DNA from: Gemmobacter sp. 24YEA27
Lineage (GTDB): Bacteria > Pseudomonadota > Alphaproteobacteria > Rhodobacterales > Rhodobacteraceae
Direction: 5' to 3'
Assembly (NCBI RefSeq): GCF_030052995.1
Contig: NZ_JASJPW010000001.1
Location: 926,501 to 990,500, forward strand
DNA: 64,000 nt
Shown here: positions 52,150 through 64,000 of the stretch, one piece after another
Layout of the letters: each line of letters starts with the position of its first letter
Position numbering within the stretch: position 1 is the first letter of the stretch
The notes under the pieces: model-generated
Told to the model about the DNA's origin: nothing
The model's database searches: none
The model's input: the letters and a program-made list of their open reading frames with translations, nothing else
Position numbers and translations under genes: made by a program

Positions 52150-52801
52150 ACCAGTGGCGGCTCATGGCTCGATGTCGCAGATGCCGCGCGTGCAGGTGCC
52201 GCGGAAGAAGGCGAAGGCGCGATCATGCGCGTCGAAGATCGAGCCATTGGGCGCCATCGGTCCGAGCCCGATGGCGAGGCTCCTGGCTCGCGCGCGGGTA
52301 GGCCCGAACGAACATCATCCGGCTGTGGCAGAGGCGGACATGGGCCACCTTGATCGTGACGGTCACGCCTGAGACCAGCACCACCTCGTGGCTCCGGTCG
52401 AACTGGTAAGCCTCTCCAGGATCATAAGAAAGCGGCACATAGGCCTCGGCCGCCGCTGTCCCGCGGCTTTGCGACCAGGTGCGGGCAAAGCGACGGATGG
52501 CGTCGTAGCCGCCTTCATAGCCAAGGGCGCGCAACTCCTCGAAGATCCGGATCAGCGTCAGCCGCTCTCGGGACGGCTTGCCCGCATTCGCCGCGAGCAG
52601 CCGGTCAAGCTGGTCCTGCCACGGCCCGATCCGCGGCATCGGCTGATGCGTCCGCTCGTAGCTGAAGTCCGTCTCATCCGACCGCAGGATCTTGCGGACG
52701 GTGTTCCGGGAGACGTGCAGCTCTCGCACGATCTTCTTCATCGACCAGCGCTGCACGTAGAAGGCCCGCCGGACCCGCGCAATCGTATCCACCTGCTTCA
52801 T
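52086..52801 (-). pseudogene. istA: IS21-family transposase IstA, truncated and frameshifted
   Basis: The N-terminal frame (from 52801) has the IstA helix-turn-helix MKKIVRELHVSRNTVRKIL and the start of the DDE domain. After VRAYPRASQE the frame is lost, and further IstA-like pieces (DAHDRAFAFFRGTCTRGI and AVEAVFTGKERLY) appear in other frames down to about 52086. The C-terminal half and istB are missing. A remnant of an insertion event. Confidence 0.8.
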
Positions 52802-52911
52802 CTCCCCCTCCGTCCGCTGACCCGCAGCGAACGGTCTGACGAAATATCAGGGGGGTCAAAATTGGGCGCCGATGCCCCCGTTAGGGGGTGAAAGTTGCAC
52901 GCCGAAACACA

Positions 52912-53225
52912 CTTTGCATCCCTGACGAAATACGCGGTGGCCCTTCGTCGGGAAAACAGTCCACTGGACTGTTTTCTCACCCTCCTCGATTTAGGATGTC
53001 GCGCTCGTCGCAAACCCGGGCCAGCTCCCGCTTCAACAGGCGGATCTCGCCATCCTTCCCGGTCTCGCCTGATGCCGTCTTCGCGAACTTGCGCTTCCAG
53101 GCATAGAGCGAGTGCTTGCTCACGCCGAGCCGTTCAGAAACCTCGCTGACCGGGTAGCCCCGCTCCGTGATCTGAGCGACCGCATCGCGCCTGAAGTCGT
53201 CGCTGAAAGTGGCTGTGCCCATCAT
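52912..53225 (-). pseudogene. IS3-family transposase OrfA, interrupted and truncated
   Basis: From 53225 the frame encodes MGTATFSDDFRRDAVAQITERGYPVSEVSERLGVSKHSLYAW..., a typical IS3-group OrfA with leucine-zipper-like ELARVCDERDIL. It stops early at 52977. The expected continuation (ATAYFVRDAK) is found in another frame at 52912-52944, past an inserted palindromic stretch. OrfB is absent, the IS21 fragment lying where it should be. Confidence 0.75.
52952..52976. repeat. 25-base palindrome inside the IS3 OrfA remnant
   Basis: A 12-bp perfect inverted repeat around one central C (arms GAAAACAGTCCA and TGGACTGTTTTC). It sits exactly where the OrfA reading frame is broken, as if a short palindromic element had inserted there. 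Confidence 0.6.
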
Positions 53226-53351: not shown

Positions 53352-54053
53352 TCAGGTCAGCGAGACCTGGTAGACCAGCCCGTCGGTGCGGCACAGGCTC
53401 CGGCGGCGTTCCACAACGCGGCCCATGATGTCAAAAGCCATCCGGTCGATACAAAGGATCGGGGCGCCGGGTTTCAGGTTCAGCGCCTTTGCCGTTTCGC
53501 GATCGGCCTCGGCGGCGGTGATCGATTCATCGGCGCGCAGGATGATGCAGCCGTAATTCTGCTGATAAAGCACATAAAGCGTGTTCGGCAGCGGCGCCCG
53601 CAGATCAAGCCCCGCAAAGCGGTTTGCCGAAACCACCGCGGTTTCCAGCATGCTCGGAACACCTTTCAGGCTGCGCAGCCGCCGGATCTCGTAGACCCGG
53701 GCCGGTGCCTCGTCGAGCACCTTCCGCTCCTCTTCGGTCGAGGCGCGGCTGGTCACCACCTCGCTCATCAGCTCGGGGCGAATCATTGTCCCGTCAGCCT
53801 CGCGCAGGCGGAAAAAGTTGAAGAGCGCATTATCCGGTGTGCGGGCGGTGACAAAAGTGCCGCGGCCCTGTTCACGTTTCACAATACCCAGCTGTTCCAG
53901 CACCATCAGGGATTTGCGCGCTGTGCCCTGCGACACGCCGGTATCTGCCGCGATCTGCATTTCACTGGGCAACATCGAGCCCGGAAGCAGCTCGCCCGAG
54001 GAAATCTGGGCGACGATCCGGTCGATCACGGTCTGGTAAAGCGGTGCGGCCAT
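53352..54053 (-). CDS. GntR-family regulator (HutC type) of the suy locus
   Basis: 233 residues from the ATG at 54051-54053, preceded by AGGAA; the longer frame to 54194 runs through the promoter. The winged HTH is PLYQTVIDRIVAQISSGELLPGSMLPSEMQIAADTGVSQGTARKSL. The C-terminal UTRA ligand domain ends with DRMAFDIMGRVVERRRSLCR. A regulator on the opposite strand upstream of suyAB was described in Paracoccus pantotrophus, and this fits. It likely senses sulfolactate or a related compound. Confidence 0.82.
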   Translation of the reverse strand: MAAPLYQTVIDRIVAQISSGELLPGSMLPSEMQIAADTGVSQGTARKSLMVLEQLGIVKREQGRGTFVTARTPDNALFNFFRLREADGTMIRPELMSEVVTSRASTEEERKVLDEAPARVYEIRRLRSLKGVPSMLETAVVSANRFAGLDLRAPLPNTLYVLYQQNYGCIILRADESITAAEADRETAKALNLKPGAPILCIDRMAFDIMGRVVERRRSLCRTDGLVYQVSLT

Positions 54054-54119
54054 TTCGGGTTCCTGGTGTTTTCCCGACGCTATCACGCGGGCCGATCTGT
54101 GCACAAGAATTATAGAATA

Positions 54120-54135
54120 ACTCTTGTATAAGAGT
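54120..54135. promoter_or_regulatory. Inverted repeat ACTCTT-GTAT-AAGAGT, likely GntR operator
   Basis: Perfect 6-bp arms with a 4-base centre, in the AT-rich gap between the divergent GntR gene and suyA, 58 bases before the suyA start. A second CAAGA/TCTTG pairing (54103-54126) overlaps it. Confidence 0.55.
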
Positions 54136-54192
54136 AATTGTACATGATACGAGTTGAGCATCGGATAGAACAGCAATCCCGGGGAGGAGCCC

Positions 54193-54480
54193 ATGAGTAT
54201 CCCGCAACTTCTGGTCCATGATCACGAGGACAATGTCGGCGTGGTTGTCGTCGAGAACCTGAAAGCCGGCACCGAGATGATCTGCGTCGTCACGCATGAC
54301 AATTCGGACTTCCGCCTTGTCGCCAATGCCGACATCCCGATCGGTCACAAGGTCGCGCTGAAGCCGCTCAAGGCGGGCGATACCGTCACCAAATATGGCG
54401 AAGACATTGGCCGCATGGTCGGAGATGCCGGCATCGGCGACCACGTCCATACCCATAACTGCAAAACGAAACGGTGGTGA
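54193..54480 (+). CDS. suyA: (2R)-sulfolactate sulfo-lyase small subunit
   Basis: 95 residues forming an SAF/UxaA N-terminal-type domain ([21 protein letters not shown], then [29 protein letters not shown]). The alpha subunit of sulfolactate sulfo-lyase is about this size. With SuyB it cleaves 3-sulfolactate to pyruvate and sulfite. Without context it could also be read as an altronate dehydratase-type subunit; the regulator-suyA-suyB-suyZ order favours Suy. suyB starts four bases after its stop. Confidence 0.8.
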
Positions 54481-54484
54481 TCAG

Positions 54485-55666
54485 ATGGCACTCGATTTCA
54501 GCAATGCGACGGTGAAAGCCTGGCGGCGTGAGAATGGCCGCGTCGGTGTCCGCAACCATGTTCTGATCCTGCCGGTGGATGATATCTCGAACGCCGCCTG
54601 TGAAGCGGTGTCAAACAACGTCAAAGGCACGATGGCGCTGCCGCATGCTTACGGGCGTCTCCAGTTCGGTGAAGACCTCGAGCTGCATTTCCGCACCATC
54701 ATCGGCACCGGCGCCAACCCCAATGTCGCCGCTGTGGTGGTGATCGGGATCGAGCCGGAATGGACCAAGGTCATCGTCGACGGCATCGCCAAAACAGGCA
54801 AGCCCGTCACCGGCTTCTCCATCGAGCAGAAGGGCGATTTCGAGACCATCCGCGCCGCAAGCTGGAAGGCCAAGGAATATGTCCATTGGGCGTCCGAGCT
54901 GCAGAAAGAAGACTGCCCGATCTCGGATCTCTGGATCTCGACCAAATGCGGCGAGAGCGACACGACCACGGGCCTCTCCTCCTGCCCGACCGTCGGCAAT
55001 ATGTATGACAAGCTGCTTCCCCAGGGCATTTATGGCTGCTTTGGCGAGACCTCGGAAATCACCGGGGCCGAGCATATCTGCGAGAAACGCGCCGCAACCC
55101 CCGAAGCTGCCGCCAAATTCAAAGCGATCTGGCAGGCCTATACGGATGATGTGATCTTTGCGCATCAGACCGATGACCTCTCGGACAGCCAGCCGACCAA
55201 GGGGAACATCCTCGGCGGTCTGACCACCATCGAGGAAAAGGCGCTCGGCAACCTGGAAAAGATCGGCCGCACTTCGACCTATATCGATGCGATGGGCCCG
55301 GCTGAGGCACCGTCAAAGGGGCCGGGGCTTTATTTCATGGACAGCTCTTCGGCCGCGGCGGAATGTGTCACGCTGATGGCGGCGGGCGGCTATGTTATCC
55401 ACACCTTCCCGACCGGGCAGGGCAATGTGGTCGGCAATCCGATCGTTCCGGTGATCAAGATCTCGGGCAATCCGCGCACGCTTCGCACCATGTCGGAACA
55501 TATTGACGTCGATGTGACCGGTGTGCTGACCCGCGAGAAGACCATAGATCAGGCCGGCGACTCGCTGATCGAGATGATCATCCGCACCGCGAATGGTCGT
55601 CTGACCTGCGCCGAAGCGCTCGGTCATCGCGAATTCTCGATGACGAAGCTTTACCGCAGCGCCTGA
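54485..55666 (+). CDS. suyB: (2R)-sulfolactate sulfo-lyase large subunit
   Basis: 393 residues, matching the 42 kDa beta subunit. UxaA-family features: [46 protein letters not shown] (likely iron-ligand Cys), and [31 protein letters not shown] longer in-frame start at 54395 lies within suyA and is not needed. The enzyme is probably iron-dependent and cytosolic. A strong hairpin separates it from suyZ. Confidence 0.82.
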
Positions 55667-55694
55667 TCTGTGATCCTAGACCTGCTATAGGACC

Positions 55695-55721
55695 CCGGCC
55701 CCGCGATCGTCGCGGGGCCGG
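55695..55721 (+). other. 12-bp hairpin between suyB and suyZ
   Basis: CCGGCCCCGCGA / TCGCGGGGCCGG with a 3-base loop and no T run. It lies 28 bases after the suyB stop and 32 before suyZ. It is probably an mRNA-processing or stability element, or a partial terminator that sets the suyAB:suyZ ratio. Confidence 0.6.
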
Positions 55722-55753
55722 TGAAATACGGTCTGAGCCCGGAGCGGAAAGCT

Positions 55754-56815
55754 ATGGCACAAATCGACGAAACGCGGGCCTCTGATACCCGCCCCGCCGG
55801 CCTGCGTGGTACGGCGCTATGGCAGTCTGCCAATACTCTGTTTCCCGGCATTGCGGTTGCGATCCTTGTCGCGGTGACCGCGCAGTTCCTGTCCGAGCAT
55901 TACGGCGCGCCGGCGATGCTGATGGCGCTTTTGATGGGGCTCGCGCTGAACTTCCTTGCCGATCAGGGCACGCGGACCGAGGCCGGGATCGGCTTTTCCG
56001 CCCGCACTGTGCTGCGCCTTGGCGTGGCGCTGCTGGGCGCGCGGATCTCGGTCGAGATGCTGACAAAGCTTGGTACCGGGATGATCCTGCTGGTGATCGC
56101 GGGTGTGGCGGTCACGATCCTGTTCGCAATGCTGGCCGCAAAGGTTTTCGGGCGCGGCTGGCGCATGGCGCTGCTTTCTGGCGGGGCGGTGGCGATCTGT
56201 GGGGCCTCCGCTGCCATGGCGATTGCCGCCGTGTTGCCGCGCACCGATAAATCCGAGCGCAACCTTGCCTTCACCGTGATGGCCGTCACCATCCTGTCGA
56301 CCGTCGCGATGATCGCCTATCCGCCGCTTTCCGGCTGGTTCGACTTTACGCCCCTGGAATCCGGCGTTTTTCTTGGCGGGACGATCCATGACGTCGCCCA
56401 GGTCGTCGGCGCCGGTTTCTCGATCAGCCCGGAGGTGGGCGAGACGGCGACGGTCGTCAAGCTGATCCGCGTTGCCATGCTGGCGCCGGTGGTGCTGGTG
56501 TTTTCTCTGGTGATCCGCGCCGGGCATCTGGGTGAAGACAGTACCGGCGGCATCCGCCCGCCCTTATTGCCGTCATTCGTGATCTGGTTTCTGGTACTGG
56601 CCGCGCTGAATTCCTTTGGCGTGATCCCGGCCTCTGTCGCCTGGTTCGCCGAACAGGCCAGCCGCTGGGCCCTCTTGACCGCCATCGCCGCCGTGGGGAT
56701 CAAGACCTCGCTGGTGAAGATGATGGAAGTGGGTGGCTCTGCCATCTGGCTCGTCGTGGTCGAGACCATCTTCCTTGCCTGTTTCATCCTTGCGGGCCTG
56801 CATCTGATCAGCTGA
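55754..56815 (+). CDS. suyZ: YeiH/COG2855 membrane protein, putative sulfate/sulfite exporter SuyZ
   Basis: 353 residues from the ATG at 55754 (GGAG at 55741-55744). Ten or so helices with family motifs LFPGIAVAILVAVTAQFLSEHYGAPAMLMALLMGLALNF, LRLGVALLGARIS, SGGAVAICGASAAMAIAAVLP and LGGTIHDVAQVVGAG. In Paracoccus pantotrophus a COG2855 gene, suyZ, is co-transcribed with suyB and proposed to export the sulfur oxyanion released by desulfonation. A second homologue lies 5 kb downstream. Confidence 0.82.
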   Translation: MAQIDETRASDTRPAGLRGTALWQSANTLFPGIAVAILVAVTAQFLSEHYGAPAMLMALLMGLALNFLADQGTRTEAGIGFSARTVLRLGVALLGARISVEMLTKLGTGMILLVIAGVAVTILFAMLAAKVFGRGWRMALLSGGAVAICGASAAMAIAAVLPRTDKSERNLAFTVMAVTILSTVAMIAYPPLSGWFDFTPLESGVFLGGTIHDVAQVVGAGFSISPEVGETATVVKLIRVAMLAPVVLVFSLVIRAGHLGEDSTGGIRPPLLPSFVIWFLVLAALNSFGVIPASVAWFAEQASRWALLTAIAAVGIKTSLVKMMEVGGSAIWLVVVETIFLACFILAGLHLIS

Positions 56816-56890: not shown

Positions 56891-56905
56891 GTAAGTTTTG
56901 CTTAC
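56891..56905. promoter_or_regulatory. Inverted repeat GTAAG-TTTTG-CTTAC upstream of the sdh-like operon
   Basis: Perfect 5-bp arms with a 5-base spacer in the AT-rich promoter region before the iron-sulfur subunit gene. The same GTAAG-N5-CTTAC layout recurs at 63341-63355 before the ABC gene. Likely operator of a shared regulator. Confidence 0.55.
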
Positions 56906-56986
56906 TAAATTATTTAAAATTAGTTCCTTAGTGTTAGAAAAAACATGCGCTACACCGTGTTCAAGGGAAGAGCCAACAGGTGCGCT

Positions 56987-57715
56987 GTGAGCGGGAACGA
57001 AAAGGTGATGGACGTGTCGGTCTGGCGCGGGTCCGGAGACGAGGGCGCTTACGAGAGCTTTCAGGTCCCGGCGCAGGACAATCAGACCGTGCTGGATGTG
57101 GTGAGCTATATCCAGCAAGAGCTCGACCCGTCGCTGACCTATCGCTATGCCTGCCGCGTCGGCATGTGCGGCTCCTGCGCGATGATGGTGAATGGCCAGC
57201 CGCGCTGGACCTGCCGGACCCATGTGAAAAAGGTGCTGAACGGCGACAGGCTGACCGTCGGGCCGCTGCGCAATCTGCCGGTGATCCGAGACCTCGCCGC
57301 CGATATGGACCCGTTTTTCGAGAAATGGATCAAGGCGGGTGGCGTCCATAAACCGGGCCTCAGCCGCGACGACGCGATCCAGCAGGTCAGACCGGAAGAT
57401 CCGGGCAGGGTCGAGGCCAATAAGGCGATTGAATGCATCAATTGCGCGGTCTGCTACGCGGCCTGCGACACCGTTGCCGGCAATCCCGATTACCTGGGTC
57501 CGGCGGCGTTACAACGGGCCTGGACGCTTTACAACGATGTCAAAGTCACCGACCGCGCAGCGGTTCTCGCCAGCGTGACCGGGCCCGGGGGCTGCACCAA
57601 TTGCCACAGCCAGGGCAGCTGCACCCGGTTTTGCCCCAATGAGCTGGACCCGCTCAGCTCCATCGCCGGGCTGAAACGCGCGGCGGCGCGGTCGTTTTTC
57701 GGGGGGAAAGGCTGA
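56987..57715 (+). CDS. Succinate dehydrogenase/fumarate reductase-like iron-sulfur subunit
   Basis: 242 residues from GTG 56987 (AGG at 56978-56980); ATG 56945 and ATG 57008 are alternatives. The [2Fe-2S] domain has CRVGMCGSCAMMVNGQPRWTC. The second half has CINCAVCYAAC and two more Cys groups (GGCTNCHSQGSCTRFCP), consistent with [4Fe-4S] and [3Fe-4S] centres. It links the flavoprotein to the membrane quinone site. First gene of a six- or seven-gene operon. Unusual: the third Cys group carries extra cysteines and a His. Confidence 0.87.
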   Translation: MSGNEKVMDVSVWRGSGDEGAYESFQVPAQDNQTVLDVVSYIQQELDPSLTYRYACRVGMCGSCAMMVNGQPRWTCRTHVKKVLNGDRLTVGPLRNLPVIRDLAADMDPFFEKWIKAGGVHKPGLSRDDAIQQVRPEDPGRVEANKAIECINCAVCYAACDTVAGNPDYLGPAALQRAWTLYNDVKVTDRAAVLASVTGPGGCTNCHSQGSCTRFCPNELDPLSSIAGLKRAAARSFFGGKG

Positions 57716-58047
57716 TGCTGGGGATCCGGCTTTATATGGCGCAGCGCCTGAGTGCGATGGTGATGGGACCGCTGGTGATCGGCCATCTGGCGGTGATGAT
57801 TTACGCGATCCAGGGCGGGTTGTCTTCGGCCGAGATCCTTGGCCGCACCAAAGGCTCGATCCCCTGGTTCCTCTTCTACGGCGCTTTTGTGCTGGCGGTC
57901 TCGGTTCATGCGGCCATCGGGCTGCGGGTGATCCTGCATGAGGTCACAGGCCTGAGGGGCCGCCTGCTGGAAGTCTTCACCTTGGGCGTCATGGCCCTGT
58001 TGACCGTGATGGGAGCACGCGCCGTTCTGGCCGTGACACTGCTGTGA
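57715..58047 (+). CDS. Succinate dehydrogenase-like membrane anchor subunit 1
   Basis: 110 residues with three helices. Its ATG shares a base with the preceding TGA. VIGHLAVMIYAI and VSVHAAIGLRVILHE place histidines where haem b ligands are expected. It resembles the anchor cytochrome b subunits of short four-subunit succinate dehydrogenase/fumarate reductase complexes. Confidence 0.75.
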   Translation: MLGIRLYMAQRLSAMVMGPLVIGHLAVMIYAIQGGLSSAEILGRTKGSIPWFLFYGAFVLAVSVHAAIGLRVILHEVTGLRGRLLEVFTLGVMALLTVMGARAVLAVTLL

Positions 58048-58385
58048 TCGGGCCTCACCGGCGCCACCCGCTCTGGCTTGCCTATATGCTGCACCGTGCC
58101 TCTGGCTTCGCTCTGGCTTTGTTTCTGCCCGCGCATTTCTGGGTACTGTCGCTGGCACTGACCGATCCCGATCAGCTCGATCAGTTCCTCAGCTTTGCCG
58201 ATAACCCGTTGGCGAAAGTCGCGGAATTCGGCCTCGTCTTCCTGCTGGCGGTGCATTTCTTCGGGGGGCTGCGGCTCCTGGCGCTGGAGTTCCTGCCCTG
58301 GTCGCAGCGGCAGAAAAGCCTGGCCGCCGGTGCGATTGCGGGGGCGTTTCTGATCTCCGGCACATTTCTTCTCAGGGCGATATAA
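58044..58385 (+). CDS. Succinate dehydrogenase-like membrane anchor subunit 2
   Basis: 113 residues from a GTG overlapping the previous TGA. It has the SdhC signature YMLHRASGFALALFLPAHFW and a second His in LAVHFFGGLRLLALE, typical haem b and quinone-site residues. Three helices. Together with subunit 1 it anchors the complex and feeds electrons to quinone. Confidence 0.78.
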   Translation: MIGPHRRHPLWLAYMLHRASGFALALFLPAHFWVLSLALTDPDQLDQFLSFADNPLAKVAEFGLVFLLAVHFFGGLRLLALEFLPWSQRQKSLAAGAIAGAFLISGTFLLRAI

Positions 58386-58388
58386 CCC

Positions 58389-60143
58389 ATGACCAGGTTT
58401 GAGATTGAGCGCGACGAGACGGATATCCTGATCCTTGGGTCGGGCGGGGCCGGATTGTTTGCGGCGCTGCATGCGGCGCAGAGCGCGGCCCCGGGCACGC
58501 GGATCACCCTGGCGGTGAAGGGGCTGATCGGCAAATGCGGCTGCACGCGGATGGTGCAGGGCGGCTATAACGTGGCACTTGGCGGTGGCGACACGGTTGA
58601 GCGCCACTTCATGGATACGATCAATGGCGGCAAATGGCTGCCGAACCAGGATATGGCCTGGCGGCTCTGCGAGCAGGCCGTGGTCCGCATCCGCGAGCTG
58701 GAAAACGAGGTTGGCTGTTTCTTTGACCGCAACCCGGACGGCTCGCTGCATCAAAAGGCCTTCGCGGGCCAGACCGCCGACCGCACCGTCCATAAGGGCG
58801 ATCTGACCGGGATCGAGATCATCTCGCGGCTGATGGAGCAGGTGCTGGCACGGCCGGTGCAAAAGCTGCAGGAGCACCGCGCCATCGGGCTGGTGCCGAC
58901 GAAAGACGGCGCCTCTCTGGCGGGGGTGCTGTTCATCGACATGCGGACCGGGCGCTTCCGCTTTGTCCGCGCGAAGGCCGTGATGATGGGCACCGGCGGG
59001 GGCCCTACCATGTACAAATACCATACGCCCTCGGGTGATAAGACGATGGACGGGCTGGCGATGGCGCTGCGCGCGGGCCTGCCCTTGCGCGATATGGAGA
59101 TGGTGCAATTCCATCCGACCGGTCTTCTGGCGGGCGATTACACCCGCATGACCGGCACGGTGCTGGAAGAAGGCTTACGGGGTGCGGGCGGGCAGCTTTT
59201 GAACGCGCGCGGTGAGCGGTTCATGTTCGATTATGACCAGCGCGGCGAGCGGGCGACCCGCGATGTGGTCAGCCGCGGCATCTATGCCGAGATGCGGAAG
59301 AACAACGACCCGACCCAGACCGGCATGTTCATCTCGATGGGGCATCTGGGGCCGGACAATGTCCGCAAGAAATTCGCGGGCATGGTGAAACGCTGCGCTG
59401 ACAGCGGGTTTGACCTTGCGGCGGGCAAGGTCGAGGTGGTGCCGACCGCGCATTATTTCATGGGCGGCGTGGTCGTGGACCCCGATACCCGCACCGAGAT
59501 GGAGGGGCTTTACGTCGCGGGCGAAGATGCCGGCGGCGCGCATGGCTCGAACCGGCTGGGCGGCAATGGGGTCGCGAATTCCACCGTCTTTGGCGGTATC
59601 GCGGGCGATGTTATGGCGGCTGACATCCGCAAGATGTCCTTGCGCGACCCGGATGAAGCGGTGCTAGCGGCGGAAGTTGCCCGTGCCTGCCATCCGTTCT
59701 CGAAGAAGGCCGATCGGATCCAGCCTCTGCGCCACAAGCTGCAGGAGGGGATGTGGGAAGATGTCGGCGTGATGCGCACCGGCGCCGGGATTCAGCGCGG
59801 CGTCAGACGCATCGCAGAACTCCGCAGTGAACTGATGGAGACCGGCGTTGACCCGGCAAACCTCGCTTTTAACCTGACCTGGCATGACTGGCTGAACATG
59901 GCCTCTCTGGTCGAGGTCTCGGAAGTCATCGCGCGGGCGGGGGGGCTGCGCGAAAACTCACGCGGCGCGCATTTTCGCGAGGATTTCCCCGAAAGTGGCG
60001 ATCTTGAAAGCTCATACTTCACCCTTGCCCGCAAGCAGGGTGACGCACTGACCCTGACCCGCGAACAGGTGCAGTTCACCATTGTCCGCCCTGGCGAGAC
60101 GGTGCTGCCCGCGCATGAACCCGAAACGCTTGTCGCGACCTGA
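58389..60143 (+). CDS. Succinate dehydrogenase/fumarate reductase-like flavoprotein subunit
   Basis: 584 residues. The FAD-binding start is ILILGSGGAGLFAALHAA. Substrate-site motifs of the family are present: QFHPTG (His242), EEGLRGAGGQLLNARGERFM (Arg), PTAHYFMGG (His) and HGSNRLGGNGV (Arg). The His that covalently binds FAD in classical SdhA/FrdA (SHTxxAQGG) is Cys52 here (GCTRMVQGG; codon TGC at 58542-58544), so FAD is probably not bound through 8-alpha-N3-histidyl. The electron chain to the Fe-S and anchor genes is complete. Substrate is probably a dicarboxylate or analogue, not assured to be succinate. Confidence 0.87.
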   Translation: MTRFEIERDETDILILGSGGAGLFAALHAAQSAAPGTRITLAVKGLIGKCGCTRMVQGGYNVALGGGDTVERHFMDTINGGKWLPNQDMAWRLCEQAVVRIRELENEVGCFFDRNPDGSLHQKAFAGQTADRTVHKGDLTGIEIISRLMEQVLARPVQKLQEHRAIGLVPTKDGASLAGVLFIDMRTGRFRFVRAKAVMMGTGGGPTMYKYHTPSGDKTMDGLAMALRAGLPLRDMEMVQFHPTGLLAGDYTRMTGTVLEEGLRGAGGQLLNARGERFMFDYDQRGERATRDVVSRGIYAEMRKNNDPTQTGMFISMGHLGPDNVRKKFAGMVKRCADSGFDLAAGKVEVVPTAHYFMGGVVVDPDTRTEMEGLYVAGEDAGGAHGSNRLGGNGVANSTVFGGIAGDVMAADIRKMSLRDPDEAVLAAEVARACHPFSKKADRIQPLRHKLQEGMWEDVGVMRTGAGIQRGVRRIAELRSELMETGVDPANLAFNLTWHDWLNMASLVEVSEVIARAGGLRENSRGAHFREDFPESGDLESSYFTLARKQGDALTLTREQVQFTIVRPGETVLPAHEPETLVAT

Positions 60144-60160
60144 ATAAAGGAAGCCAACCC

Positions 60161-61116
60161 GTGATACCGATCAATGTGATCCAGTCCACCGCCGAGGCGC
60201 TGATGGCCAAAGCCGCGATTGAAATCCCGAGGATTACCTCGGCGGGCTGAAGGCGGCGGCGGAAACCGAGGATGGGGATCTTTCCTCCTTCGTTCTCCAG
60301 GCGATGCTGGAGAATTACGAGGCCGCGAAACAGGACCGCCGCGCGATGTGCGGCGATACGGGCACGCCGCGCTGGTATGTGAAGATGGGCAATGACGCCC
60401 GGATCGAGGGCGGGCCGATCGCGCTGGAAGAGGCCTTGCGTCGGGCGACCTCGAACGCGACGTCTTCGGTGCCGCTGCGCCCCAATCGGGTACATCCTTT
60501 GTGGCGCACCGATTACAACAACAATATCGGCATCGGCGCGCCCGAGATCGAATATGGCTATGAGCCGGGCGGCGACTGGATCGACCTGATCACCGTCCAC
60601 AAGGGCGGGCTGTTCGGGACGGATTACCGGATGCTCTTCCCGTCAGACGGCATCCAGGGGATCAAGCGCTTCTACCTTGATTGTCTGGTGGCTTTCGGCA
60701 AACGCGGCCTCGCCTGTCAGCCGGCGATCATCGGGATTGGCCTCGGTGGCTGCAAGGATACCTGCATGGTGCTTGGCAAACGCGCGGCCTGCCTGCGCAC
60801 AGTGGGCGACCGCAATTCCGACCCGAAAATCGCGGCACTGGAGGAAGAGTTCAAAGAGCTTGGCAATTCTATCGGCATGGGCGCGATGGGCTTTGTCGGC
60901 AAGAATATGGTGATCGATACCCATATCGAGGTCGGCTACTGCCATACCGGCGGCATGCAGATGTCGGTCCATGCCTTCTGTCTCTCGTCACGTCGCGCGG
61001 TCGCCCGCATCTTCCCCGACGGGCGCGTCGAGCATCGCACCGATCCCGACTGGTTCACCCCCTATCAGCGCCGCGAAACCGTCGGCTGGGAAATGTCGCG
61101 GGAGGCCGCAGAATGA
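60161..61116 (+). pseudogene. Class I fumarase/L-tartrate dehydratase alpha-like subunit, frameshifted
   Basis: Begins at GTG 60161 with AAAGGAAG just upstream. After IPINVIQSTAEALMAKAAIEIP the frame breaks; adding a G at about 60229 (CCGAG to CCGGAG) gives EDYLGGLKAAAETEDG and joins the downstream frame, about 318 residues in all. Fe-S hydratase motifs follow: MCGDTGTPRWYVKMG and GIGLGGCKDTC and EVGYCHTGGMQ, with the cluster cysteines in place. It should add or remove water on a fumarate- or tartrate-like acid together with the next gene. The gene is otherwise intact, so the break may be a sequencing error. Confidence 0.82.
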
Positions 61117-61781
61117 AACCGCGTGAGGTCATCCTTTCCACCACGCCGACGCCGGAAGACATCGCGGCTTTGCGCCTTGGTGATATCGTTTACCTCAATG
61201 GGCTGATGTATACCGCCCGCGAAGGCGTCTATATGCGCGCGCTGGAGCAAAGCGCGAATATCCCGATGGAGCTGCCGTCGCAAAGTGCCGCGAATTTCCA
61301 CTGCTCGCCCGCCGCGACGATCCGCGAGGATGGTACGTTTGATCTGGGCGCTGTGACCGCCACGGCGAGCTTCCGCTTCGCGAAATGGCTGCCGGAATGG
61401 ATGGCGAAGACCGGCGCGAAGCTGATCATCGGTAAGGGCGGCATGTCCTCGAAAGACTACAAGGACTACTTCGTCCCGAATGGCGCGGTCTATCTGTCGA
61501 CGGTCGGCTACGGCACCGGCGCCCTGCTCGGGCGCGGGGTCGAGAATGTCGAGGCCGTCCACTGGAATGAGGAACTTGGCCTTGCCCAAGCGATGTGGGT
61601 GATCCGCTGCAACCGGATGGGGCCCTTCCTTGTGGCCTCCGACCTTGACGGCAATTGCCTCTTCGAGCGCGAGAATGCCAAAATCGCCGGGAATCTTGAG
61701 CGGATCTATGAGGGCACCAGACCGGCTGTCCTGAAACGCTTTGGCGAGACCGATGACCGTGGCGACGAGCTGATCGGATGA
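61113..61781 (+). CDS. Class I fumarase/L-tartrate dehydratase beta-like subunit
   Basis: 222 residues from the ATG at 61113, overlapping the alpha stop by four bases. Typical beta features: LSTTPTPEDIAALRLGDIVYLNG, MYTAREGVYMRAL (the catalytic-loop TxRD becomes TARE), and LIIGKGGMSS, then YLSTVGYGTGALLGRGV. It completes the hydratase. Its last bases overlap the YeiH-type gene by four (ATGA). Confidence 0.85.
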   Translation: MKPREVILSTTPTPEDIAALRLGDIVYLNGLMYTAREGVYMRALEQSANIPMELPSQSAANFHCSPAATIREDGTFDLGAVTATASFRFAKWLPEWMAKTGAKLIIGKGGMSSKDYKDYFVPNGAVYLSTVGYGTGALLGRGVENVEAVHWNEELGLAQAMWVIRCNRMGPFLVASDLDGNCLFERENAKIAGNLERIYEGTRPAVLKRFGETDDRGDELIG

Positions 61782-62790
61782 ACAGCCTCGTGGCAGAGGT
61801 GCCGGGCAGCTGCCGGCGGCTTTTCCCGGGGCTGGTTTCGGCGGTGACAGTGGCGCTGGCCGCGAAATTCATCTCGGAACATTACGGCGCGCCGGTGATG
61901 CTGATGGCGCTTTTGATCGGGATGGCCTTCACCTTCCTCGCCGAACCCGACATGAAAACCGCCGAAGGGATTGAATTCGCCTCGAAAAAACTATTGCGCT
62001 TTGGCGTGGCGCTTCTGGGTCTTGGATCACCGTGCAGCAGATTGCGGCGGCCGGGATCGGCGTTGTCCTGCTGGTTTTTGCCGGAGTGGGGCTGACCATC
62101 CTTGCCGGCGTGGCGCTGGCGAGGTTCACCGGGCGTTCATTGCCCTTCGGTCTTTTGACCGGCGGTGCGGTGGCGATTTGCGGCGCCTCTGCCGCGCTGG
62201 CGATTTCCTCGGTCCTGCCGAAATCCGGCCCCGGACAGGAACGCGATACCATCTTCACGGTGATCGCCGTGACCGCACTTTCCACGCTCGCGATGATTGT
62301 CTATCCGATGATCGGGGCGGCGCTTGGCCTGTCAGATCATGCGATGGGCGTTTTTCTTGGCGCCACGATCCATGATGTCGCCCAGGTGGTCGGCGCGGGC
62401 TATTCGGTCTCGGACGAGGCCGGCGCCACAGCGACCTTCGTAAAGCTGCTGCGGGTTGCGCTGCTGGTTCCGGTTGTGGTGCTTTTATCGCTGATGTTCA
62501 GCCGGGGGGGCGCTGCGGGGCAGGGCGGCCGATTGCCTGTCCCGTTCTTTGTGATTGGCTTCGCGGCGCTGGTGCTGATCGGCAGTACCGATGTCATCCC
62601 GCCCGAAATCAGCGCCCTTTTGCTTGATCTGTCGCGCTGGTGCCTGATCACCGCCATTGCCGCGCTTGGCATGAAAACCTCGCTGAAAAAGCTGGGAGAG
62701 GTTGGCGGTGTGGCCATCGGCATCGTCTGCGGCCTGACCGTTTTGCTTGCCGTTTTCGCGCTGGCGGCGATCCGGATCTTTGAAATCTGA
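61778..62790 (+). pseudogene. Second YeiH/COG2855 (SuyZ/TauZ-like) membrane protein, frameshifted
   Basis: Two frames join into one of about 337 residues when one base is added near 62019-62025 (restoring LLGLRITVQQIAAAG). Motifs match suyZ: FPGLVSAVTVALAAKFISEHYGAPVMLMALLIGMAF, LRFGVALLG, TGGAVAICGASAALAISSVLP and LGATIHDVAQVVGAGYS. The presence of a desulfonation-type exporter inside an sdh-hydratase operon suggests that the pathway releases sulfite or sulfate. It overlaps the beta subunit gene by four bases. Confidence 0.8.
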
Positions 62791-62808
62791 CCTCTGAGGG
62801 GCAAGACC

Positions 62809-63123
62809 ATGTTCGTTGATATGCGGACCTATACGCTGAAGAATGGCAATGTTTCCAAATTCCTCAAGCTTTATGAGGCTGAAGGCCTTGCCGTACAGAC
62901 CCGCATCCTCGGCAATCTGGTCGGCTATTATTTCACCGATATCGGCCCTTTGAACCAGATCGTCCATATGTGGGGCTATGCCAGCATGGATGACCGCTGG
63001 GAGCGGCGTAAGGCCCTCCAGGCTTCGGACGAATGGCAGAATTACGCCGTGCAGATGCGGCCGCTGGTCGATCATATCGAGACAAAAATCCTGATCCCGG
63101 CGCCGTTTTTCCGCCAGGACTGA
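62809..63123 (+). CDS. NIPSNAP-family protein
   Basis: 104 residues of ferredoxin-like alpha/beta fold: MFVDMRTYTLKNGNVSKFLKLYEAEGLAVQTRILGNLVGYYFTDIGPLNQIVHMWGYASMDDRWERR is the NIPSNAP pattern. Such small proteins often occur in catabolic operons with unknown roles. It follows the YeiH-type gene by 18 bases and closes the operon. Confidence 0.82.
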   Translation: MFVDMRTYTLKNGNVSKFLKLYEAEGLAVQTRILGNLVGYYFTDIGPLNQIVHMWGYASMDDRWERRKALQASDEWQNYAVQMRPLVDHIETKILIPAPFFRQD

Positions 63124-63627
63124 TGAGCCTTGATGGCAGAAGGCCACCTGGACCCTGCCATGTCACGCCAGCTGGTTTGTGCCGCGCATGAGGTCACGAT
63201 GTACGATCTCACCCCGGGGCGGCTGACAGTCTTGTGGTGGCAGGAGGCCCTGCGCCGCCATGCGCTTTGCCAGGGCAGAGCTTCGTCTGCAAGGGGCGGC
63301 GCATGATCCCTGGCGACGGCATTTTCTGCGCCAGGTGTGTGTAAGCAATACTTACGGAAGATATTAAGATTTTTAGATTTTCTTGCGAAACCTTCTCCCC
63401 TAACCTTAAGACAGGAAGCTGGCTCGGTTGCGTCTTGTTTCCCGGGGCGGCGATGCGGCTTCGTGCCATTTCCGAATGACATCGTCCTGAACGGGCTGCA
63501 AAAAGACCCGTTTTCGCAAGCCTGCCGGAAAAGGCGTGGGATGGTATCCCACACCTGACCGGCGGGCCCCTATCCACTGGGAACAGCGTTGGGAGGCGCG
63601 GTTCCGGCAGATTTAGAGGGAGGAGAG
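63124..63627 (+). promoter_or_regulatory. Promoter region of the ABC gene with two inverted repeats
   Basis: About 500 bases with no convincing gene. It contains GTAAG-CAATA-CTTAC at 63341-63355, in an AT-rich patch like that before the sdh-like operon, and a perfect repeat GTGGGAT-GGT-ATCCCAC at 63536-63552. Both are candidate operators. The final GGGAGGAGAG at 63618-63627 is the ribosome site of the ABC gene. Confidence 0.5.
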
Positions 63628-64000
63628 ATGCAGCCAAATGATCCGCTGCTGACCGTACGGGGGGTAACCCTGCAGTATAAAACACCAAACCGTCTGATCA
63701 CCGCGACCTACAGGGTCAGCTTCGACGTGTTTCAGGGGGATCGCTTTATCCTTCTTGGGCCGTCGGGTTGCGGAAAATCGACCCTGCAAAAGGCGGTGGG
63801 CGGCTATATCACGCCGACCGAGGGCGAGATGCGGCTCAAGGGGCGCAAGATCACCCAGCCGGGGCCGGACCGGATGATGGTGTTCCAGGAATTCGATCAG
63901 CTCTTGCCCTGGAAGACCGTCCGCCAGAATGTGGCCTTTGCCCTGACCGCGTCGAAGAAACTCAGCCCCCGCGAGGCGGATGAGAAGGCGATGGAATATG
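63628..64000 (+). CDS. Taurine/sulfonate/nitrate-type ABC transporter ATPase, 5' part
   Basis: The first 124 residues only; the gene runs off the window. Walker A is GPSGCGKST (about residues 47-55) and the Q-loop VFQEFDQLLPWKTVRQN has the LLPW variant typical of SsuB/TauB/NrtD and HMP-importer ATPases. The signature and Walker B lie beyond the end. Substrate cannot be decided; context with sulfolactate genes makes a sulfonate or related organic acid plausible. Confidence 0.83.
   Translation, partial: MQPNDPLLTVRGVTLQYKTPNRLITATYRVSFDVFQGDRFILLGPSGCGKSTLQKAVGGYITPTEGEMRLKGRKITQPGPDRMMVFQEFDQLLPWKTVRQNVAFALTASKKLSPREADEKAMEY

Follow-up and report, generated by a model that had tools for sequence, protein, structure and literature searches.

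What are genes resembling those for succinate dehydrogenase (SDH) and fumarase doing in the middle of a sulfonate gene cluster? The question is raised by a stretch of 64,000 nucleotides from Gemmobacter sp. 24YEA27 (the window; C1:926501-990500 of the genome), whose + strand encodes, from position 54193, suyA, suyB, suyZ, sdhB, two membrane anchors, sdhA, the alpha and beta subunits of a hydratase, a PF03601 exporter, a NIPSNAP protein and an ATP-binding cassette (ABC) ATPase. We consider it likely that the genes at this locus serve the catabolism of 3-sulfopropionate, the sulfonate analogue of succinate. After uptake by the ABC importer, 3-sulfopropionate would be oxidized to 3-sulfoacrylate by the SdhBCDA complex, whose iron-sulfur (FeS) clusters would pass the electrons on to quinone. 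Water would then be added to C2 of 3-sulfoacrylate by the class I fumarase-like hydratase, giving 3-sulfolactate, whose enantiomers could be interconverted via sulfopyruvate by SlcC- and ComC-like dehydrogenases. Finally, SuyAB would cleave (R)-sulfolactate to pyruvate and sulfite, and YeiH and TauE exporters would remove the sulfite. We infer every substrate and reaction in this route from gene content, linkage, residue changes and a shared motif, all of which are observed.

In related clusters, sulfolactaldehyde-reductase-like and succinate-semialdehyde-type dehydrogenases probably feed 3-hydroxypropanesulfonate or homotaurine into the route via 3-sulfopropanal, and Xsc may carry out the final desulfonation instead of SuyAB. 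These genes bracket a gap, with 3-sulfopropanal to 3-sulfopropionate on one side and sulfolactate to its products on the other, and one dehydrogenation and one hydration are needed to close it. By analogy, this is the chemistry that SDH and fumarase perform on succinate and fumarate. We lean towards a broader interpretation, in which a whole stretch of the tricarboxylic acid (TCA) cycle was copied and adapted to sulfonates. The dehydrogenase-hydratase module would then supply the genes so far lacking for 3-sulfopropionate breakdown, both widespread and carried on plasmids, with SuyAB, Xsc and possibly malonate semialdehyde/MmsA as interchangeable ends. An earlier note on this DNA had proposed dehydrogenation to the quinone pool, hydration, and release and export of sulfite; gene content and linkage support that order. 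Its example substrate, sulfosuccinate, appears less likely than 3-sulfopropionate, because a sulfosuccinate route needs neither the linked genes predicted to make 3-sulfopropionate (GabD-like and sulfolactaldehyde-reductase-like) nor those predicted to consume 3-sulfolactate (SuyAB, SlcC and ComC).

An SDH-fumarase module within a sulfolactate-type cluster

The cluster is of the sulfolactate type and carries the module in its middle. The module opens with an SdhB-like FeS subunit (56945..57715; PF13085 and PF13534, TIGR00384 over cut-off), followed on the same + strand by two anchors, the first at 57715..58047 (PF01127) and the second, of the cytochrome b556 type, at 58044..58385 (PF01127, TIGR02970 over cut-off). 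The flavoprotein, a putative 3-sulfopropionate dehydrogenase, spans 58389..60143 (PF00890, PF02910). Next come the class I fumarase-like hydratase alpha gene, which has an apparent frameshift (~60161..61116; PF05681, TIGR00722 over cut-off on the open part), and hydratase beta (61113..61781; PF05683). A second YeiH/COG2855 exporter gene, also apparently frameshifted (61778..62790; PF03601 on 62032-62787), and a NIPSNAP gene (62809..63123; PF07978) complete this run. The four-subunit membrane flavoprotein complex, two-subunit hydratase, second exporter and NIPSNAP protein described in the earlier note are thus all present by Pfam, next to suyABZ at 54193-56815 as it stated.

The first import gene encodes the sulfonate-class ABC ATPase of that note, here assigned as Tau/Ssu-type; it starts at 63628 on the + strand and runs past the window end at 64000 (continuing in L002 12129-14868). 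Its closest NCBIfam families among 25 of 184 listed are ntrCD and TauB, all below cut-off. Past 64000, the + strand goes on with genes for a permease, a binding protein of the SsuA type and TauE. The permease is closest to SaoP/ntrB/SsuC and the binding protein to SsuA_fam, all below their NCBIfam cut-offs. On the - strand beyond 64000 lie genes for an Ldh_2 (ComC-like) protein, a D-2-hydroxyacid dehydrogenase (SlcC-like) and a LysR regulator. NF040650 (L-sulfolactate dehydrogenase) is the best NCBIfam match of the ComC-like protein, yet at 178.7 bits against a cut-off of 500.

Upstream of the module, a UxaA-type large subunit and a separate small subunit are found, the composition of SuyAB sulfo-lyase. 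The suyB-like large-subunit gene lies at 54485..55666 (+ strand; PF20629, PF04295). The suyA-like gene (54193..54480, + strand), for the small subunit of 3-sulfolactate sulfo-lyase, is assigned from its location and from homologues that neighbour SuyB in other loci; its product has no Pfam match and a weak match to TIGR03248. A suyZ-like YeiH/COG2855 exporter gene follows at 55754..56815 (+ strand; PF03601, TIGR00698 below cut-off). Divergent from suyAB, on the - strand, is a GntR/UTRA regulator gene (53352..54194; PF00392, PF07702), whose true start is probably within the open reading frame (ORF). Upstream of it, at 52223-53225, are transposase-like ORFs, by eye of the IS21 and IS3 types.

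A distinct flavoprotein family and its hydratase partner

The module shares the architecture of complex II as found in SDH and fumarate reductase (FRD): four subunits, with a flavoprotein of FAD_binding_2 and Succ_DH_flav_C domains, an FeS protein providing the electron relay, and membrane anchors. Flavoprotein residues were compared in 17 aligned members and in 101 dereplicated loci. His242, Arg291, His355 and Arg389 are unchanged in all 101 loci and align with the dicarboxylate-site and proton-transfer residues of FrdA/SdhA, the catalytic Arg and the carboxylate-binding His and Arg among them. Unlike complex II, the module has Glu260 at the substrate-site Thr (FrdA Thr244) in 101 of 101 loci, whereas the strain's own SDH has Thr. 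Cys52 replaces the His that links FAD covalently in 100 of the 100 loci covered, one more not being covered, and Arg54 is a new residue in 100 of 100. Position 253, part of a T-[RK] insertion absent from the strain's SDH, is Arg in 85 loci and Lys in 16. It does not split by linkage to SuyB (six Arg and one Lys with SuyB; 79 Arg and 15 Lys without). The uniform Glu260 and the lack of a split at residue 253 therefore suggest one substrate class for the family.

Curated models also place the flavoprotein apart, as it scores below the SdhA/FrdA cut-offs (TIGR01812, 408.9 versus 567.3; TIGR01816, 335.9 versus 727.35) and over no curated NCBIfam cut-off among 25 listed families of 30 matched. By sequence, it is a distinct, uniform family. 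The strain's own SDH is encoded elsewhere in the genome (flavoprotein 33% identical, next to genes that by eye encode the anchors and the FeS subunit), as is its own FumC, which is over cut-off. A role for the module as redundant TCA enzymes was ruled out on that ground. Listed close relatives of the flavoprotein carry database names as varied as ‘L-aspartate oxidase’, ‘fumarate reductase flavoprotein’ and ‘FAD-binding protein’ (P0001-P0120), so that surveys can easily overlook the trait.

The hydratase has the domains of class I fumarase and L-tartrate dehydratase TtdAB, PF05681 in alpha and PF05683 in beta, and is distinct from the FumC of its own genome, where beta is the sole PF05683 protein. 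Unlike class I fumarase and TtdAB, beta falls under all its equivalog cut-offs (NF006082, 117.9 versus 264; NF004708, 113.5 versus 269) and under that of the subfamily TIGR00723 (111.1 versus 145.15). Alpha scored 167.1 against 276 for NF004885 and 120 against 365 for NF006084, with the open part scanned and ~48 N-terminal residues missing. In genome G161 and in Methylobacterium, a distant hydratase homologue (34-36% identity in alpha, 27-31% in beta) stands beside a flavoprotein of 61-64% identity, so the function seems to have been kept while the gene was exchanged.

In some loci the two hydratase genes are separated. Of 104 loci, 10 (L025, L058, L066, L075, L078, L080, L089, L107, L109 and L123) have a gene matching the CaiB-type CoA-transferase of L058 (class III by eye) between alpha and beta. 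A homocysteine S-methyltransferase-like gene, again by eye, occupies this place in L026, L071, L096 and L100.

Linkage, co-occurrence and a shared operator-like repeat

Module loci were drawn from 194 related genomes, from annotated plasmids (15 records carrying the module) and from a scan of named genomes, from which the best 80 of at least 581 hits were used. The flavoprotein is present at E<=1e-150 in 16 of the 194 related genomes, and by tblastn (E<=1e-3) relatives of it are encoded at no fewer than 581 sites of the genome collection, some of which may belong to other families. Of the 107 loci, dereplication (97% DNA identity) left 101. Flanks of more than 8 kb are available on each side of 76 of these; the other 25, with short flanks, are left out of the 76-locus counts. 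Twenty random 20-kb stretches, drawn from six genomes, served as controls; six came from the strain's own genome, and one of those six contains its SDH. A family found in none of the 20 may still have a background of up to about 14%. The census counts sequences rather than independent events and is phylogenetically biased, since the named loci are the best 80 of at least 581 and their titles look to be largely of the Rhodobacterales type. One record titled Oceanobacillus sp. HTM 045 (L115) has the module with a 79% identical flavoprotein and is probably mislabelled or contaminated.

The hydratase is the most constant partner, with alpha (at least 60% identity) and beta (at least 50%) each near the flavoprotein in 73 of 76 loci and in none of the controls. 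Also absent from all 20 controls are the exporters (TauE 54/76, YeiH 15/76, either 58/76), an orthologue of the LysR regulator (at least 45% identity, 49/76), TctA (32/76), NIPSNAP (15/76), the Tau-type binding protein (14/76) and CaiB (9/76). The same holds for the predicted downstream genes SuyB (7/76), SlcC (7/76) and ComC (6/76), which number 7, 7 and 6 in the 101 loci, and for the upstream genes bHAD (6/76) and GabD (7/76), which number 7 and 9. SorA/SoxC-type sulfite-oxidase-like proteins, near 13 of 76 loci, are weaker evidence because they also occur in 1 of 20 controls. A thiamine pyrophosphate (TPP) enzyme resembling acetolactate synthase, and far below the Xsc cut-off, lies near 22 of 76 loci (L039 9410-11011, L044 15648-17273 and relatives; 0/20 controls).

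Full sets of SuyAB, SlcC and ComC accompany the module in the clade of the window, on plasmids of Methylobacterium radiotolerans and M. oryzae, and in G161, while a Rhizobiaceae metagenome-assembled genome (MAG) has the module with SuyAB and a Tau-type importer. SuyAB-linked modules thus span Pseudogemmobacter/Paracoccus, Methylobacterium, the Rhizobiaceae MAG and one further alphaproteobacterial family. In Pseudorhizobium NT-26, the module is followed by a dehydrogenase closest to sulfolactaldehyde 3-reductase (PRK15461, 324 bits, cut-off 348) and by a succinate-semialdehyde dehydrogenase (TIGR01780 over cut-off), relatives of both of which are found in a Chromatiales symbiont (L106). Upstream and downstream markers occur together in four loci (L022, L023, L045 and L046).

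Across the 194 genomes, SuyB is present in 27: it occurs in 9 of the 16 module genomes and in 18 of the other 178 (Fisher p=3e-5; 6/13 versus 18/169, p=0.003, when the strain's own genus is collapsed). SuyB or Xsc over cut-off is found in 14 of 16 module genomes and 74 of 178 others (p=4e-4). All of these tests ignore deeper phylogeny. Xsc is over cut-off in 75 of 194 genomes and in 5 of the 7 module genomes that lack SuyB. That absence of SuyB rules out SuyAB as an obligatory partner, and a role for Xsc as its universal replacement was not established (alone, 9/16 versus 66/178).

The earlier note also placed the module and the import genes under a shared operator, which is real as a motif. 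An inverted repeat found by eye, GTAAG-N5-CTTAC, occurs at exactly two sites in the 64 kb window, upstream of sdhB (56891..56905, + strand) and of the ABC genes beginning with tauB (63341..63355, + strand); none of 100 shuffles gave two sites. In 11 of 97 loci the exact repeat lies no more than 450 bp upstream of sdhB; all these loci together, 1.97 Mb, hold 14 sites, and 400 kb of control stretches hold none. TAAG-N5-CTTA occurs within 300 bp upstream in 14 of 94 loci, where the remaining sequence of the loci predicts 0.30, and a half-relaxed form in 23 of 94, with 7 sites in the 400 kb of control; scrambled versions and versions with shifted spacing were found in 0 of 94. The repeat is not universal: an exact site is lacking in most loci, and in the closest relative (L021/L045) the one copy left is that preceding tauB. 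Its form fits a LysR T-N11-A box, and the LysR protein encoded beyond the window is 57% identical to that of Roseovarius nubinhibens.

Published routes and competing explanations

The earlier note knew of no such pathway for these families. This needs a qualification for the chemistry, since according to a thesis (Mayer) cited in PMC11489063 R. nubinhibens metabolises homotaurine by way of 3-sulfopropionate, sulfoacrylate and sulfolactate, the intermediates proposed here. The relevant passages of PMC11489063 do not name genes for the steps from 3-sulfopropionate through sulfoacrylate to sulfolactate; they describe bacterial 3-sulfopropionate degradation as otherwise unreported and the route in Bilophila as remaining to be investigated. 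In a literature search that covered mostly titles and the starts of abstracts, and few subscription journals, no described catabolic genes for sulfosuccinate or 3-sulfopropionate were found; mentions in PMC5982446 and PMC6316539 concern dimethylsulfoniopropionate.

R. nubinhibens ISM itself carries the module (L058), with a flavoprotein 83% identical to that of the window and a hydratase alpha that is the genome's only PF05681 protein and so its only class I fumarase. The strain has Xsc over cut-off and no SuyB match at E<=1e-20. Passages of PMC6278857 describe its sulfolactate as passing through sulfopyruvate and sulfoacetaldehyde to Xsc, so the gene content fits the reported route. Two other published systems offer parallels. 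HpfXYZ of Enterococcus gilvus (PMC11489063) likewise represents succinate-family enzymes retuned to 3-sulfopropionate, although HpfXYZ makes this compound and the module would consume it. The SlcC-ComC-SuyAB pathway of Chromohalobacter, Paracoccus and Taurinivorans (PMC12421959, PMC10507020) has the same downstream gene set, which in the window is instead joined to a module that would make sulfolactate.

The module may also have been seen in expression data. PMC12421959 describes a ‘cluster 3’ in P. wurundjeri (MDP0926751-0926761), nine proteins of which are up on sulfofucose, and assigns it to ‘fumarate and tartrate metabolism’ with a link to the Krebs cycle; a TauE homologue, MDP0926757 (printed once as MDP0926575), belongs to it. 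The module of P. onubensis (L050) comprises eleven genes: sdhB, anchor, anchor, sdhA, fumA, fumB, tauE, lysR, tauA, tauC and tauB. Because cluster 3 likewise has eleven consecutive locus numbers with the TauE homologue seventh, it is probably the module, an identity drawn from number and position only.

Several observations weigh against the 3-sulfopropionate assignment. Growth on sulfofucose probably induces the module in P. wurundjeri, although its breakdown would not be expected to pass through 3-sulfopropionate; such induction may reflect a shared signal or a role not yet understood. The exchange of Thr for Glu brings no obvious gain for anion binding, and the CaiB-type and methyltransferase-like genes between the hydratase subunits are not needed by the route. 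Only a minority of loci have bracketing genes nearby (upstream genes 10/76, SuyB 7/76), 18 of 76 loci have no TauE or YeiH nearby, and MmsA, near two of 101, fits another exit. Among the 16 module genomes, 7 lack SuyB, two (G059 and G170) have neither SuyB nor Xsc over cut-off, and Xsc alone is hardly enriched.

Compatible with the assignment, and quite conceivable, is that the strain's own cluster is decaying, with the hydratase and one exporter broken and a feeding dehydrogenase lost. The nearest module genomes by flavoprotein identity are Paracoccus sp. IB05 (98%), Pseudogemmobacter bohemicus (96%) and P. faecipullorum (91%), and the IB05 locus (L021), 95-97% identical, served as reference for frameshift calls. 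Relative to it, hydratase alpha has one uncompensated 1-base deletion near 60225 and the second exporter another near 62023. Where L021 has ~900 bases, the window has ~100 (63146-63247), and comparison with L021 and L022 marks ~63142..63248 (+ strand) as the site of a missing 3-hydroxyacid dehydrogenase gene, of which a weak trace is left (25 aa, 48%, E=0.28). This gene is nearly whole in L021 and L022 (297 of 300 aa aligned), and the L023 copy is cut by the locus end. The window copy shows either decay or assembly errors, as single-base deletions can be assembly error; the remaining cluster genes are open, and hydratase alpha is open from 60304, from an internal ATG.

We regard it as unlikely that the substrate is sulfosuccinate, which would be oxidized to sulfofumarate and hydrated at the sulfonated carbon to yield oxaloacetate and sulfite directly. 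The module and an exporter would suffice for this route, TctA-type carriers are near 32 of 76 loci where SuyB is near only seven, and DctA-type carriers are found in Methylobacterium. It would leave SuyAB, SlcC, ComC, GabD and the sulfolactaldehyde-reductase-like enzyme unused though all recur; the constancy of Glu260 and the lack of a split by SuyB linkage at position 253 suggest one substrate, and the R. nubinhibens report, as cited, names 3-sulfopropionate.

Unlikely, too, is a different exit for 3-sulfopropionate itself, with water added at C3 to give 3-hydroxy-3-sulfopropionate, which would release malonate semialdehyde and sulfite and proceed through MmsA to acetyl-CoA. CoA-acylating malonate-semialdehyde-type dehydrogenases in Pseudomonas sp. 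MPC6 (L043 17325-18815) and Cupriavidus P-10 (L042 9609-11084) hint at such a second exit. The former, of the (methyl)malonate-semialdehyde type, directly follows fumB (TIGR01722, 695 versus 448.5 bits) and the latter lies ~1.4 kb from sdhB. The exit would explain loci without SuyAB or Xsc, but MmsA is near just 2 of 101 loci (2/76; 0/20 controls), SuyAB, SlcC and ComC would be idle in the window cluster, and the thesis route, known second-hand, passes through sulfolactate. It is very unlikely that an operon for common organic acids, such as methylsuccinate/mesaconate or tartrate, or a second copy of a TCA segment, lies beside sulfonate genes by chance: the enzymes do belong to the SDH, class I fumarase and tartrate dehydratase families and the CaiB-type gene would fit citramalate activation, yet exporters are linked in 58 of 76 loci and no control, the genome has its own SDH and FumC, the substrate-site Thr is always Glu, and a repeat motif is common to the module and a Tau-type importer.

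The assignment to 3-sulfopropionate thus appears the best supported, and the locus gives concrete candidate genes for the breakdown of this compound. If it is true, the carbon of homotaurine or 3-hydroxypropanesulfonate would enter metabolism through a copy of TCA chemistry.

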